From an uncultured Acidimicrobiales bacterium (GTDB taxonomy: Bacteria > Actinomycetota > Acidimicrobiia > Acidimicrobiales > SHLQ01): a stretch of 41,876 nucleotides of DNA. The DNA lies in contig CALKGG010000069.1 in the NCBI GenBank assembly GCA_938084885.1, positions 1 to 41,876 on the forward strand, read 5' to 3'. The notes beneath the pieces were generated by a model, which saw nothing but the letters and a program-made list of their open reading frames with translations, did not search any database and had not been told where the DNA came from. Position 1 is the first letter of the stretch. Each line of letters begins with the position of its first letter. The position numbers and the translations under genes are program-made. Shown here piece by piece: positions 33,052-38,301 of the stretch.

Positions 33052-34125
<1,074 letters not shown>

Positions 34126-34286
34126 CGATCAGCCTGGCGCGGCCCGCCCGCACATCATGATCACTCGCTACTCGCCACGGGCCATTCTTGGCCTGTGGCT
34201 TTTGGCTCTTCCCCCGACCGGTTTGAGCGGTATACAGTGGAAGCGTTGGCGGACAACGATCAGTTGCGGGTTCAGGAGTTACAAAG
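34126..34286 (+). promoter_or_regulatory. Upstream region of the secreted LAGLIDADG-like gene
   Basis: This 161-bp spacer contains TATACAGT (34231-34238), a good -10-like sequence, preceded by a weak GC-rich -35 region. AGGAG sits about 9 bp before the ATG at 34287, a normal ribosome site, so this gene is leadered unlike many neighbours. No clear terminator for mdh is visible beyond a weak GGCC...GGCC dyad. Confidence 0.35.
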
Positions 34287-35726
34287 ATGCGTACGCGGAG
34301 CTGGCTTACGTCAGGTATTGCAGCGATGCTGCTCACGGCGGGCATTGTGCTCGGCGTGGGTGTGAGTGCCGGAGTCGACGCTGACGAAGCGCAAGCACTG
34401 ACCCCGACCCCGACCATTCAAGAGACTGCTCGTCTCCTCGGCTACATGTGGGGCGATGGCGAGCAAATTGGCGGCGGTGTTTGGGATGTCAACGGCCCAA
34501 GCGGAACATCCAGCCTCATCGAAGAGTTGATCGAGCGTCATGGTGGCACGTTTGTTGATCGTGGCCGTTTGCACTTCAGACTGCCCGCCCCATATGACTG
34601 GGACGAGTGGATCACCGGACTTCCAGATGATTCGTCGACGGTTCGCGCTGCTGTGCAGAACCCACACTTCCTCGCTGCGGTACTCGAGACCGAAGCTTCC
34701 GTCGGCGGCCAGATCTACGATCAGAGCGCGTGTTGCGTAAACGGCTACACCGTTGGACGCCTTACCGAGCTCCGCGATTTGCTGCGGTCATCGGGGTATT
34801 CAACGGCATCGGTTGCGTTGTTCGCAAACCCAAATAGCGGTCGAGTCACGGTGGCTGCTTCACAGTGGGACGACATGCGCCGAGATCTCCGCTTTGTCTG
34901 CCCGGCGTTGAACTCCGACATCCGCATTCCCGGAGGCACCAACCTCGACCGCTACGGCAACCTCCTGTGGATTGGATCAGGGTCGCCTTGGGCCGATGTC
35001 ATCCGGACCGACTGCACGAGGGGCTCTGCGGTTCCCGACGCTCGTCCGCAGGCGGGTAGCTGTTCGATGTCGCTCCAGGGCGACAAGCTTCGGCTCGACT
35101 GGACCTACACCCGCGGCGACGTGGTCATTCGCGTCAATGGAGACTTTCGAGCCACCGTCTCGGGCCGTGACCGTTCATGGACTGGATCTGTCGGGGGTGG
35201 CAATCACAACGCCACGATTCGCGTCTTCTCATTCGGGACACAAACCACTGCAGACTGCGGCGCCACAAACCGGAACGGCGAAGCAACCCCGGTGGGCGGA
35301 TGTGTGGCCACTGCTGCGGGAAGTTCGGTCGCACTCGATTGGAACAATGTCGGAGCATCTTCATATTCGGTTCGCCGAAATGGCAAGTGGGTAAAGACTG
35401 TGACCAGCACGTCGACTACCGCACGCGGCTCGACAGGCGACGCGTGGATCATTCGCTATCGACAAGCAAACGGAACAGTCGTCGACGTGAGCTGTTCGTC
35501 TGCTGCTGGCGACACGAGTCCGTGCTCGATCACAAACCGGGACCGCGGTGTACGCGTCGATTGGGATGGCGTCGATGGAATCGACGACTATCAGGTTCGC
35601 CGAAACGGCGCATGGATCGGCGAAGCAACCGGTGCCAGTCGTTTCGATGACCTGTCGGGTTCGGTGAACGACGACTACGAGATTCGCTACTTCGTTCGAG
35701 GGAACCGTCGATCCATCAGCTGCTAA
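34287..35726 (+). CDS. Secreted protein with LAGLIDADG-like domain and beta-repeat tail
   Basis: A 479-residue protein with a clear signal peptide (basic start, hydrophobic 8-28, Ala-rich cleavage zone). Residues about 45-205 resemble a LAGLIDADG endonuclease/WhiA-like fold: a first motif ARLLGYMWGDG (48-58) and a second FLAAVLETEASVGG (128-141), each followed by beta-strand and helical elements in the usual order, including TVGRLTELRDLLRSSGY. The catalytic Asp is kept in motif 1 (GDG) but replaced by Glu in motif 2. Cys149, Cys150 and Cys205 suggest disulfides. From about residue 255 come three short beta-rich units, the last two with a (S/D)Y(S/Q)VRRNG(K/A)W motif, each bounded by Cys. Nuclease activity cannot be assumed; the fold assignment is mine, by motif. 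Confidence 0.7.
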   Translation: MRTRSWLTSGIAAMLLTAGIVLGVGVSAGVDADEAQALTPTPTIQETARLLGYMWGDGEQIGGGVWDVNGPSGTSSLIEELIERHGGTFVDRGRLHFRLPAPYDWDEWITGLPDDSSTVRAAVQNPHFLAAVLETEASVGGQIYDQSACCVNGYTVGRLTELRDLLRSSGYSTASVALFANPNSGRVTVAASQWDDMRRDLRFVCPALNSDIRIPGGTNLDRYGNLLWIGSGSPWADVIRTDCTRGSAVPDARPQAGSCSMSLQGDKLRLDWTYTRGDVVIRVNGDFRATVSGRDRSWTGSVGGGNHNATIRVFSFGTQTTADCGATNRNGEATPVGGCVATAAGSSVALDWNNVGASSYSVRRNGKWVKTVTSTSTTARGSTGDAWIIRYRQANGTVVDVSCSSAAGDTSPCSITNRDRGVRVDWDGVDGIDDYQVRRNGAWIGEATGASRFDDLSGSVNDDYEIRYFVRGNRRSISC

Positions 35727-35766: not shown

Positions 35767-36609
35767 CTACTTCAGGAACTTCGACGTCGTGTTGTCGGCG
35801 AGAACCTTGCCATTGGTCTGGCACGTTGCGCAGTAGTTAACCGAGTACTTCACGTAGGCGACCTCGCGAATCGTGTCGTCGCAGTCAGGGCAAGGCTCCC
35901 CGGTCTTGTTGTGCACAGCGGACGGGCGCTTCTTCGAGGCGACGATCTCTGTTTGCGAACGCTCGAAATCGAGTGACGTATCGATGCAGGCACCGATCGC
36001 CGAGTGCAGCGCCCCCACCTGATCGGTGGTGAGTTTCGATGTGGTAGCGAACGGCGAAATCTTGGCGTGATGACACACGTCGTTGGCGAGTCTTCGCCCG
36101 AGGCCAGCAATGATGCCCTGACGTCGGAGCAGCCCGTGTATGCGCATGGAGTGATCGCTTAGAATTTCGGCGAGTAGATCAGGGTCGATGGCATCGGCGT
36201 TTGGCCCGAGCTTCGATAGAGGTTCGACCGTCTCGATGTCCGTCGAGTTGTCGAACAACCAAATGCCGGCGCGTTTGTCGCTACCAGCTTCGGTGAGCAG
36301 CAGCGCCGTGCCGTCGTCGAATGTCCAACGCGCTTGTCCGCCGCGAGGTTTCGCTGTTTGTTTCTCGTCGGGTCGGAGTCGTCCTCCCTGCATGAGGTGG
36401 ATGAGAAACGTGACCTCATCGAAGTTCAGCTGGAGGTACTTCCCTCGGGTCGTGACCGAACGGAGTGTCTGCCCGTGAGCAATCGATGGGTCGGGGGCAA
36501 ACGTCTTGAGTACATAGAAGGTGATCGGGCGGAAGGCGGTGAGCGTCTTTCCCGACCAGTCCGCTTCGAGACGTTCGGCGTGCGCTTGGATCTCACCAAT
36601 CTCGGGCAT
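35767..36609 (-). CDS. Fpg/Nei-family DNA glycosylase, divergent
   Basis: A 280-residue base-excision-repair glycosylase/lyase. The N-terminus MPEIGE keeps the catalytic P2 and E3 of the family, K57 in TRGKYLQLNF corresponds to the conserved beta-lobe Lys, and a four-Cys zinc finger is intact at the C-terminus (C240, C243, C260, C263). The helix-two-turn-helix segment reads GLGRRLANDVCHHAKISP, where Fpg and Nei normally have a conserved Asn (GIGN.YADE); here it is Arg, so lesion or DNA recognition may differ. It is probably one of several paralogues. It is convergent with the secreted LAGLIDADG-like gene and followed on the same strand, 11 bp away, by an SCP2 gene transcribed first. Confidence 0.88.
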   Translation of the reverse strand: MPEIGEIQAHAERLEADWSGKTLTAFRPITFYVLKTFAPDPSIAHGQTLRSVTTRGKYLQLNFDEVTFLIHLMQGGRLRPDEKQTAKPRGGQARWTFDDGTALLLTEAGSDKRAGIWLFDNSTDIETVEPLSKLGPNADAIDPDLLAEILSDHSMRIHGLLRRQGIIAGLGRRLANDVCHHAKISPFATTSKLTTDQVGALHSAIGACIDTSLDFERSQTEIVASKKRPSAVHNKTGEPCPDCDDTIREVAYVKYSVNYCATCQTNGKVLADNTTSKFLK

Positions 36610-36620
36610 GCGCGACCTCG

Positions 36621-36995
36621 TTAGCCCTGCGGTTGCGCTGCCAGGAGGCTGCCGAGAAGCGGGCCATGTTCGATCAGCTTCGCGACGTCACCATCGACCG
36701 AAAGGCGCCCGGTGAGAAATGCGCCTTGCGCGTGCAAGCTGCCGTCTCGAAGGGCTTGAGCTGTCGCTGCGTCTTGTTTGATCGTGACATCTGGTGTCTG
36801 TGCTGGGCCCGAGTGCACTGAGGCTATTCCTGAGCGCAGCACGAGGTGATAGTGCCCGACGGTCGCGCCGTGTTCGGTAATCAGCTGCTCGATCGTTAGA
36901 TCGACGTCCTCGCCGATCTGGCTGCCATCGACAAATGCGATCGCTCTCGCGGTGTGTGCTGCATACTCGTCGAGCTGGCCGTGCTCCATATGCAT
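36621..36995 (-). CDS. SCP2-like sterol/lipid-carrier domain protein
   Basis: A 124-residue protein from ATG 36995 (or 36989); the longer frame reading in from 37385 is antisense to the next gene and rejected. The fold pattern fits a single SCP2 domain: TIEQLITEHGATVGHYHLVLRSG, the central DVTIKQDAATAQALRDGSL segment and the helical end GRLSVDGDVAKLIEHGPLLG, where SCP2 proteins typically read G.l.i.Gd...l..l. It probably binds a hydrophobic ligand such as a fatty acyl-CoA or sterol. It is divergent from the lipocalin-like gene with only 25 bp between starts, so the two promoters must overlap. Confidence 0.8.
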   Translation of the reverse strand: MHMEHGQLDEYAAHTARAIAFVDGSQIGEDVDLTIEQLITEHGATVGHYHLVLRSGIASVHSGPAQTPDVTIKQDAATAQALRDGSLHAQGAFLTGRLSVDGDVAKLIEHGPLLGSLLAAQPQG

Positions 36996-37020
36996 AGTCT
37001 GCCCTATCGTTGGTCTCGTT

Positions 37021-37839
37021 GTGACCTCCACTGACCCATTGGCAAATTCGAGCCCCGTCGGCTCCGAGAACCTGCACGAGAGCAACGGGCATCCGGGCTG
37101 GGTCGAGGTGTTCGACAATTGGTTCGTCATACCCGGGGAGCAGGCTGGCGGGTATGTCCGGTTGACCATTCGGCCGCACGATTCCATGTGTTGGTATTGG
37201 GGTTCGCTAATCGGCCTTGGCGGCAGGTCGTTGGTGACGGTGCTCGCCGACGACCTGCCCTTGCCAAATGGACGATCGATGGAGCTTCGAGGGCCAGGGA
37301 TTTGGACCGAAACCACCGTGCTTCGACCGTTCGAACACCTCACGACCGACCTCGAAGCGTTCGGAGTGTCGATCGAACATCCCACCGATGTCTGGACCGG
37401 GGCCTACGGCGATCGCGTGGCGGTCGGGTTCGAATTCGACTGGGACACTGATGGGGCGCCAGGTCCGTCGCCGGTCACGGGAACCACCGGCTATCGGTTG
37501 GTCGGAAAGATGCACGGCGAGCTCCTGCTCGACGAGAGCAAGTGGGAACTCGTTGGCATTGGCGTTCGCGATCACTGGTGGGGAGTTCCCGATGAGACGT
37601 CCTCGTGGAACGCATGGGCGAGTCGTGATGGCGAGCTTGTTCACTCAGACGGGGGCCCGCTCGATACGAGCGATGAGGGAGTCGACATCAACGCCATCGT
37701 TGGTGGCTTGCCGGTTGGCGAGGTCTACCCCGGGCTTCGCGTCGCCGGTTGGGCGCCAGCGGGTGGGGCGGGCAAACGGCATGCACGTGCGCTACTCGTC
37801 GACGAACGCGGCGGCGGTTGGCTCGAGATCATTCGATAG
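37021..37839 (+). CDS. AttH/CrtC-like (lipocalin-type) hypothetical protein
   Basis: About 272 residues from GTG 37021; the frame from 36952 runs back into the SCP2 promoter and is less likely. The protein is beta-rich throughout, with many Trp, Asp and Gly. The segment WELVGIGVRDHWWGVPD (around 180-196) matches the RDHSWG hallmark of AttH/carotenoid-hydratase-like and DUF7064/7065-type proteins, which have two lipocalin-like beta-barrels and often sit in steroid or lipid catabolism loci. TATCGT at 37005-37010 is a possible -10 box. Pairing with an SCP2 gene fits a role with hydrophobic metabolites. No catalytic function can be assigned. Confidence 0.6.
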   Translation: MTSTDPLANSSPVGSENLHESNGHPGWVEVFDNWFVIPGEQAGGYVRLTIRPHDSMCWYWGSLIGLGGRSLVTVLADDLPLPNGRSMELRGPGIWTETTVLRPFEHLTTDLEAFGVSIEHPTDVWTGAYGDRVAVGFEFDWDTDGAPGPSPVTGTTGYRLVGKMHGELLLDESKWELVGIGVRDHWWGVPDETSSWNAWASRDGELVHSDGGPLDTSDEGVDINAIVGGLPVGEVYPGLRVAGWAPAGGAGKRHARALLVDERGGGWLEIIR

Positions 37840-37917: not shown

Positions 37918-38301
37918 ATGAACGGTATGGAGTGCGGTCGCAAGATTGATGTCATCGATGAATGGCATCTACTTGAGATTTTGGAGACGATGGTAGAACT
38001 CCTGGTCGAGACACGTGGTGCATACGGTGTGGTCACCGTCGACGAACCCGAGTTTATGCAGGTCATGGCATTCGACGATGGTGCGCTTCGAGTGGAGAGC
38101 TCGGCGAGCGACAAGGTCTTCGCTGCCGACCTGGGCTTCAACGAACGGGTCGAGGAGTACGAGCACATCGCAGCGGCGACTATCCCGGCGTCGTGGCCAG
38201 CGAGAGTCAAGATGGTCGCAAAGACCATGGCGGTTCTCGCGGTCGAGGTGCATCAGGTGCAGTTTCCGACCAGCCTCGAGTTCCAGCTCGACCATGCGTA
38301 G
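37918..38301 (+). CDS. Small conserved-looking protein, possibly TY-Chap/YbjN-like
   Basis: A 127-residue acidic protein with ATG at 37918 or 37927. The order helix - strand (FMQVMAFDDGALRVESS) - acidic helices, with a buried Trp in ASWPARVKMV, loosely resembles the YbjN/TY-Chap chaperone-like domain of actinobacteria; I am not certain. No signal peptide or membrane segment. It ends 5 bp before the convergent stop of the DUF368 gene. No function is deducible. Confidence 0.5.
   Translation: MNGMECGRKIDVIDEWHLLEILETMVELLVETRGAYGVVTVDEPEFMQVMAFDDGALRVESSASDKVFAADLGFNERVEEYEHIAAATIPASWPARVKMVAKTMAVLAVEVHQVQFPTSLEFQLDHA

Follow-up and report, generated by a model that had tools for sequence, protein, structure and literature searches.

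An exported protein family from one genus of Acidimicrobiales with a predicted LAGLIDADG-fold head

Between a malate dehydrogenase gene (mdh) and an Fpg/Nei-family gene, a contig of an uncultured Acidimicrobiales bacterium carries a gene whose product was described, in a sequence-only reading, as an exported protein with a LAGLIDADG-type fold. The questions are whether this protein belongs to the LAGLIDADG superfamily, and what such a fold would do outside the cell. The known LAGLIDADG proteins (homing endonucleases, inteins, RNA maturases, and WhiA) bind nucleic acids inside the cell. Searches of the open-access literature found no secreted, surface, or repurposed-for-export LAGLIDADG protein. 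The features of the locus are listed in Table 1, where positions are those of the window, the whole stretch of 41,876 nucleotides that was analysed.

Table 1. Features of the gene, its product, and its neighbours, in window coordinates.
Feature	Position	Strand	Basis
Malate dehydrogenase gene (mdh), upstream neighbour, locus marker	33139..34125	+	Ldh_1_N/C; synteny
AGGAG Shine-Dalgarno sequence	34274..34278	+	8 bases 5' of the ATG at 34287
Whole gene, exported protein of 479 aa	34287..35726	+	ORF; orthologues elsewhere in the genus
Signal peptide, residues 1-37	34287..34397	+	Hydrophobic core, A-x-A sites, kept in 18/18 members
Predicted two-repeat LAGLIDADG-fold head domain, residues about 44-200	34416..34886	+	AlphaFold2 model, fold comparison, hhalign with shuffled control
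Motif 1, ARLLGYMWGDG, residues 48-58, invariant D57	34428..34460	+	Conserved in 18/18
Motif 2, FLAAVLETEASVGG, residues 128-141, invariant E134 and E136	34668..34709	+	Conserved in 18/18
YDQSACC, residues 144-150, invariant Y-D-Q and adjacent Cys pair	34716..34736	+	Family conservation
C-terminal extension of the head, residues 201-245	34887..35021	+	Invariant C205 and C243
FN3-like domain 1, residues about 255-328	35049..35270	+	Model and fold match
FN3-like domain 2, residues about 336-405	35292..35501	+	Model and fold match; module widespread among secreted proteins of the bacterial family
FN3-like domain 3, residues about 411-479	35517..35723	+	Model and fold match
Fpg/Nei-family gene, downstream neighbour, locus marker	35767..36609	-	Domain match; synteny

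Near-full-length orthologues, with 46-54% identity, were found from seven other genomes of the genus when 59 related genomes were searched, and tandem paralogues adjoin the orthologues in congeners. In total, 18 head domains are present in nine of the 11 genomes of the genus. A search of the genome collection returned the same loci again, all from metagenome-assembled genomes (MAGs) of Acidimicrobiales. In one genome (G007), a match to the end of the head on contig C43 overlaps the cut end of contig C231, and this match is probably the rest of the C231 gene after an assembly break.

The head domain was not found in eight genomes of the other genera of the family, and no head domain was found at a convincing E-value from the order outside the genus. 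Among 295 other genomes sampled across the class, there was none save one weak match broken by stops, and among 395 genomes across the phylum there was none. The leftover matches in class, phylum, and order are short or broken and chance-like. Phages, plasmids, and viral contigs yielded no relative of the head. The genomes are mostly draft MAGs, and single absences may therefore be gaps; mdh itself was not found in G004.

The N-terminus of the protein has the composition of a signal peptide: a K/R start is followed by GIAAMLLTAGIVLGV (15-residue hydropathy 2.28) and by A-x-A sites, with likely cleavage at VSA-G (28/29) or AQA-L (37/38). All 18 copies (the window protein and 17 homologues) have a hydrophobic stretch near the N-terminus and, after it, sites of the A-x-A type, the calls of export resting on simple hydropathy and A-x-A criteria. 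Among other loci of the phylum with LAGLIDADG_3 (PF14528), none of 30 showed a signal-like N-terminus, about half of them being cut at the 5' end and beyond judgement. Scans of the whole protein against Pfam and NCBIfam gave no convincing match; a match of the tail to RGI_lyase (E 0.014) was weak, below the cut-off, and was rejected.

Conservation within the head is centred on two motifs, which rank among the most conserved stretches of the family. Across the 18 copies, T-A-R-L-L-G...D-G in motif 1, including D57, and F-L-x-A..E-x-E in motif 2, including E134 and E136, are invariant. Other invariant positions include W66, H85, R92, W108, Y144-D145-Q146, R158, R198, C205, and C243. The last two cysteines likely form a disulphide in the C-terminal extension of the head, part of which (within residues 201-245) is modelled with low confidence. 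The dN/dS of the head is 0.015-0.05 in close pairs, which indicates strong purifying selection. As a separate observation, the pair Cys149-Cys150 (34731-34736) is present in 15 of the 18 copies and both residues are absent in the other three; presence or absence as a pair would suit a vicinal disulphide.

The structure of the head was predicted by AlphaFold2 from the 18-sequence alignment without templates, with pLDDT 83.1 and pTM 0.86 (the other models had pLDDT 75 to 58). The predicted secondary structure, H-EE-H-EE-(H)-H-E-H-EE-H, corresponds to two LAGLIDADG repeats. In the model, the hairpin of repeat 1 is short, and ahead of the second helix of repeat 2 only one strand is clear, against two in the canonical fold. 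In the VIA structural comparison, all of the 50 best PDB entries listed are LAGLIDADG proteins. The top neighbours are I-Tsp061I (Z 11.1 over 157 residues, 3.4 A), WhiA (Z 10.8), I-SceI (Z 10.5), and I-DmoI (Z 10.3). The same proteins rank first in Foldseek, but with modest E-values (best 0.013), and the matches to viral structures in BFVD are mostly homing endonucleases and inteins.

Profile-profile comparison with hhalign relates the head to intein endonucleases independently of the structure. Against seven intein endonucleases from other actinobacteria, the score was 32.3 (P 5e-4) and both motifs aligned with their counterparts, while the maximum of 200 column-shuffled controls was 22.7 and the reversed profile gave 14.2. 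The hhalign probability of 27-31% is of moderate strength, yet far above the shuffled controls. The comparison of repeat 1 with repeat 2 of the head was not significant (P 0.58). Scans of the head against Pfam, NCBIfam, and PHROGs, and an HMM search of PDB sequences, returned no usable match. By the predicted fold and the sequence-profile relationship together, the head is assigned a two-repeat LAGLIDADG core.

The observations of the sequence-only reading are borne out, and its interpretation is supported in part. Its signal peptide recurs in every homologue, its two motifs lie exactly at residues 48-58 and 128-141, and the conserved positions of the homologues fall on these motifs rather than avoiding them. 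The helix and strand elements that it described run twice in LAGLIDADG order in the prediction, with one strand fewer in repeat 2. Structure prediction, fold comparison with known LAGLIDADG proteins including I-DmoI and WhiA, profile-profile comparison, and the signal peptides all agree with an exported LAGLIDADG-fold protein.

The monomeric homing endonucleases I-DmoI, I-Tsp061I, and I-SceI share with the head the two-repeat core and the interface acids, with Z 10-11 over about 155 residues. I-DmoI also shares the D in motif 1 and the E in motif 2. The family differs from these three enzymes in being exported, acidic rather than basic, and without the catalytic lysine positions, and the identity is 10-14%. 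It also differs in having hairpins that are short where the enzymes read DNA, in its fusion to FN3-like or RTX modules, and in its inheritance at a fixed locus. The gene does not qualify as part of an intron, intein, or mobile element; it is a free-standing gene for a secreted protein at a fixed syntenic locus.

The N-terminal domain of WhiA (DUF199) is a domesticated LAGLIDADG fold in Gram-positive bacteria and resembles the head with Z 10.5-10.8. WhiA is a cytoplasmic DNA-binding transcription factor with a helix-turn-helix (HTH) and without nuclease activity, whereas the window protein is exported, has no HTH, and has kept the acids. The window protein shows no Pfam match to HTH_WhiA (PF02650) or LAGLIDADG_WhiA (PF14527). 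Neither profile was detected in the genome of the window, nor PF14527 in 39 related genomes. WhiA may be lacking in these Acidimicrobiales or be present in a form that the profiles miss. An origin of the head from a WhiA of the same genome is unsupported, since no WhiA domain was detected there. The intein endonucleases (LAGLIDADG_3, PF14528) are related through the profile score given above and have a similar motif order, whereas the window protein has no splicing domain, no useful Pfam match, and a mostly opposite net charge. Lacking a mobile element, a basic surface, and an HTH, the protein is placed in the fold superfamily, neither as a homing endonuclease nor as a WhiA.

The part downstream of the head, described in the sequence-only reading as Cys-bounded beta units, consists of three FN3-like domains. 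In a second model (whole-model mean pLDDT 67), the tail forms three FN3-like beta sandwiches, and its fold match to FN3 arrays has E 6e-8. The predicted tail thus has the tandem seven-stranded FN3-type sandwiches that define an FN3 array. The tails differ by paralogue group: they are FN3-like in one group and consist of RTX repeats (PF00353) in the five members of the other that were scanned. Both FN3-like domains and RTX calcium-binding repeats are extracellular module types. In the tree, one branch of modest support (65/93) separates the FN3-tailed from the RTX-tailed copies.

The FN3-like tail (35049-35723) has close relatives that are common in an expanded set of other secreted proteins of the family, a single genome having as many as 20 or more matches. 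There they are joined to DUF5122 beta-propellers or to F5/8 type C domains. These FN3-array proteins have the tail modules in common with the window protein but differ in their heads, which are beta-propellers or discoidin-like, that of the window protein being LAGLIDADG.

The gene order around the locus, ABC-ABC-GlsB-mdh-[LAG]-Fpg-SCP2 with further genes, is kept across the genus; it includes two ABC-transporter genes and a GlsB-like gene, and [LAG] denotes the gene under study. The congener G002 has an empty site (L102:10538-10603), where mdh and Fpg are about 60 bases apart with no LAGLIDADG gene. In four genomes from three other genera of the family, mdh lies near Fpg with other or no genes between them. 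The copies kept differ among genomes: only the FN3-tailed copy is present in the window, only the RTX-tailed copy in G001, and neither in G002. In the simplest account, the genus would have gained the gene at the mdh-Fpg locus, duplicated it in tandem, and partly lost it. Farther downstream in the window, the ORFs 36952-37839 and 37918-38301 have no Pfam matches; the former adjoins the SCP2 gene and shows 69-78% identity across the genus.

These data are best read as an exapted LAGLIDADG fold, secreted on a stalk of FN3-like domains and used as a head that binds a ligand. That the protein carries a domesticated LAGLIDADG head on three FN3-like domains and binds an extracellular ligand is given about an even chance. 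The ancestor of the genus would have captured a LAGLIDADG domain of homing-endonuclease or intein type, which became joined to a signal peptide and extracellular modules; the basic surface for DNA binding and the positions of the catalytic lysines would have been lost. The saddle between the repeats (W66, R92, Y144-D145-Q146, R158) would now bind the extracellular ligand, these residues being placed there by alignment and secondary-structure order only. D57 and E136 possibly hold a divalent metal that aids ligand binding. The ligand would most likely be a carbohydrate or another surface polymer, and the glycan binding suggested in the sequence-only reading may hold. The FN3-like tail would give the protein reach or retain it at the cell surface or in the extracellular matrix, as the RTX tails would in the paralogues.

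About half as probable is that the head is a structural scaffold only, either a rigid extracellular spacer or a protein-protein interface, in which the acids serve helix capping and packing at the repeat interface. The exchange of FN3-like and RTX tails among paralogues that keep the head would suit such a role, and because LAGLIDADG helices pack against each other, conservation of xDG can be structural. However, the invariant W, Y-D-Q, and R outside the core motifs suggest a ligand site. WhiA, moreover, lost the motif acids yet kept the fold, which would make the acids dispensable for folding.

The acids themselves bear on a further alternative. The LAGLIDADG acids of I-DmoI are D21 and, within the VAEGD of its motif 2, E117; an E117A mutant of I-DmoI is among the listed structural matches. 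By motif alignment, D57 and E136 match these acids, which end both motif helices and serve homing endonucleases as metal ligands, and both are invariant in the 18 copies. The Glu in motif 2, which had been taken for an alteration from Asp, is therefore the normal state and no departure, since the functional I-DmoI has it as well. That the acids are retained suggests a continuing role for the interface site, perhaps in holding a metal, and could equally be a sign that catalysis has been kept.

Accounts of the protein as an exported metal-dependent nuclease or phosphodiesterase, which still cleaves extracellular DNA or another phosphodiester polymer, draw on this invariance, as positions that lose their function usually drift, and secretion suits an extracellular nuclease. 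WhiA, in contrast, is reported to be without nuclease activity (PMC11701221, PMC7282813), and HO is a domesticated LAGLIDADG protein with activity (PMC7282813). The composition of the head argues against a nuclease. Across the copies, its net charge is -4 to -20, its pI 4.1-5.3, and its number of lysines 0-4, with none in the stretch counted in the window protein, whereas six of the seven intein endonucleases have +4 to +13 (the other has -4) and I-DmoI has +14. By composition, rather than by mapped electrostatics, the head is without a basic DNA-binding surface. It also lacks the usual catalytic lysines, the position of K120 in I-DmoI being occupied by Val, Thr, Ile, and similar residues, and the beta hairpins for DNA reading are short. 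An acidic and nearly lysine-free head makes DNA binding or cleavage unlikely, and it disfavours the earlier suggestion of a DNA-binding protein; the nuclease, though one of the main alternatives, is rated unlikely, behind the scaffold.

Somewhat less probable still is an exported enzyme of another kind, whose conserved LAGLIDADG acids would hold a metal and hydrolyse some polymer outside the cell that is not DNA. If true, the protein would be the first enzyme on a LAGLIDADG fold that acts on something other than nucleic acids.

It is improbable that the head has no LAGLIDADG kinship, its motifs resembling LAGLIDADG by chance and its fold being a modelling artefact or convergence. The lack of sequence-family matches, Foldseek E-values above 0.001, and the low diversity of the head alignment (Neff about 2) would agree with this view, but the template-free structure has exclusively LAGLIDADG neighbours among the 50 listed, and the profile-profile score, obtained independently of the structure, far exceeds the shuffled controls with both motifs in register. 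A mobile homing element with an incidental signal-like N-terminus is very improbable: presence and absence at one mdh-Fpg site is as expected for an inserted element, but inheritance at a single locus, tandem duplication, extracellular tails, a signal peptide in all copies, the low dN/dS, and the lack of copies in phages, plasmids, and viral contigs stand against it.

For annotation, the family would be a warning that an exported LAGLIDADG-like domain is not necessarily an intein or a nuclease. It offers a clean and testable case, being found in one genus at one locus, with relatives in which the site is empty and paralogues with exchanged tails. If acidic proteins inherited at a fixed locus are exported and still have the active-site acids, the LAGLIDADG fold would be shown to be transferable to another compartment and, probably, to a new ligand.
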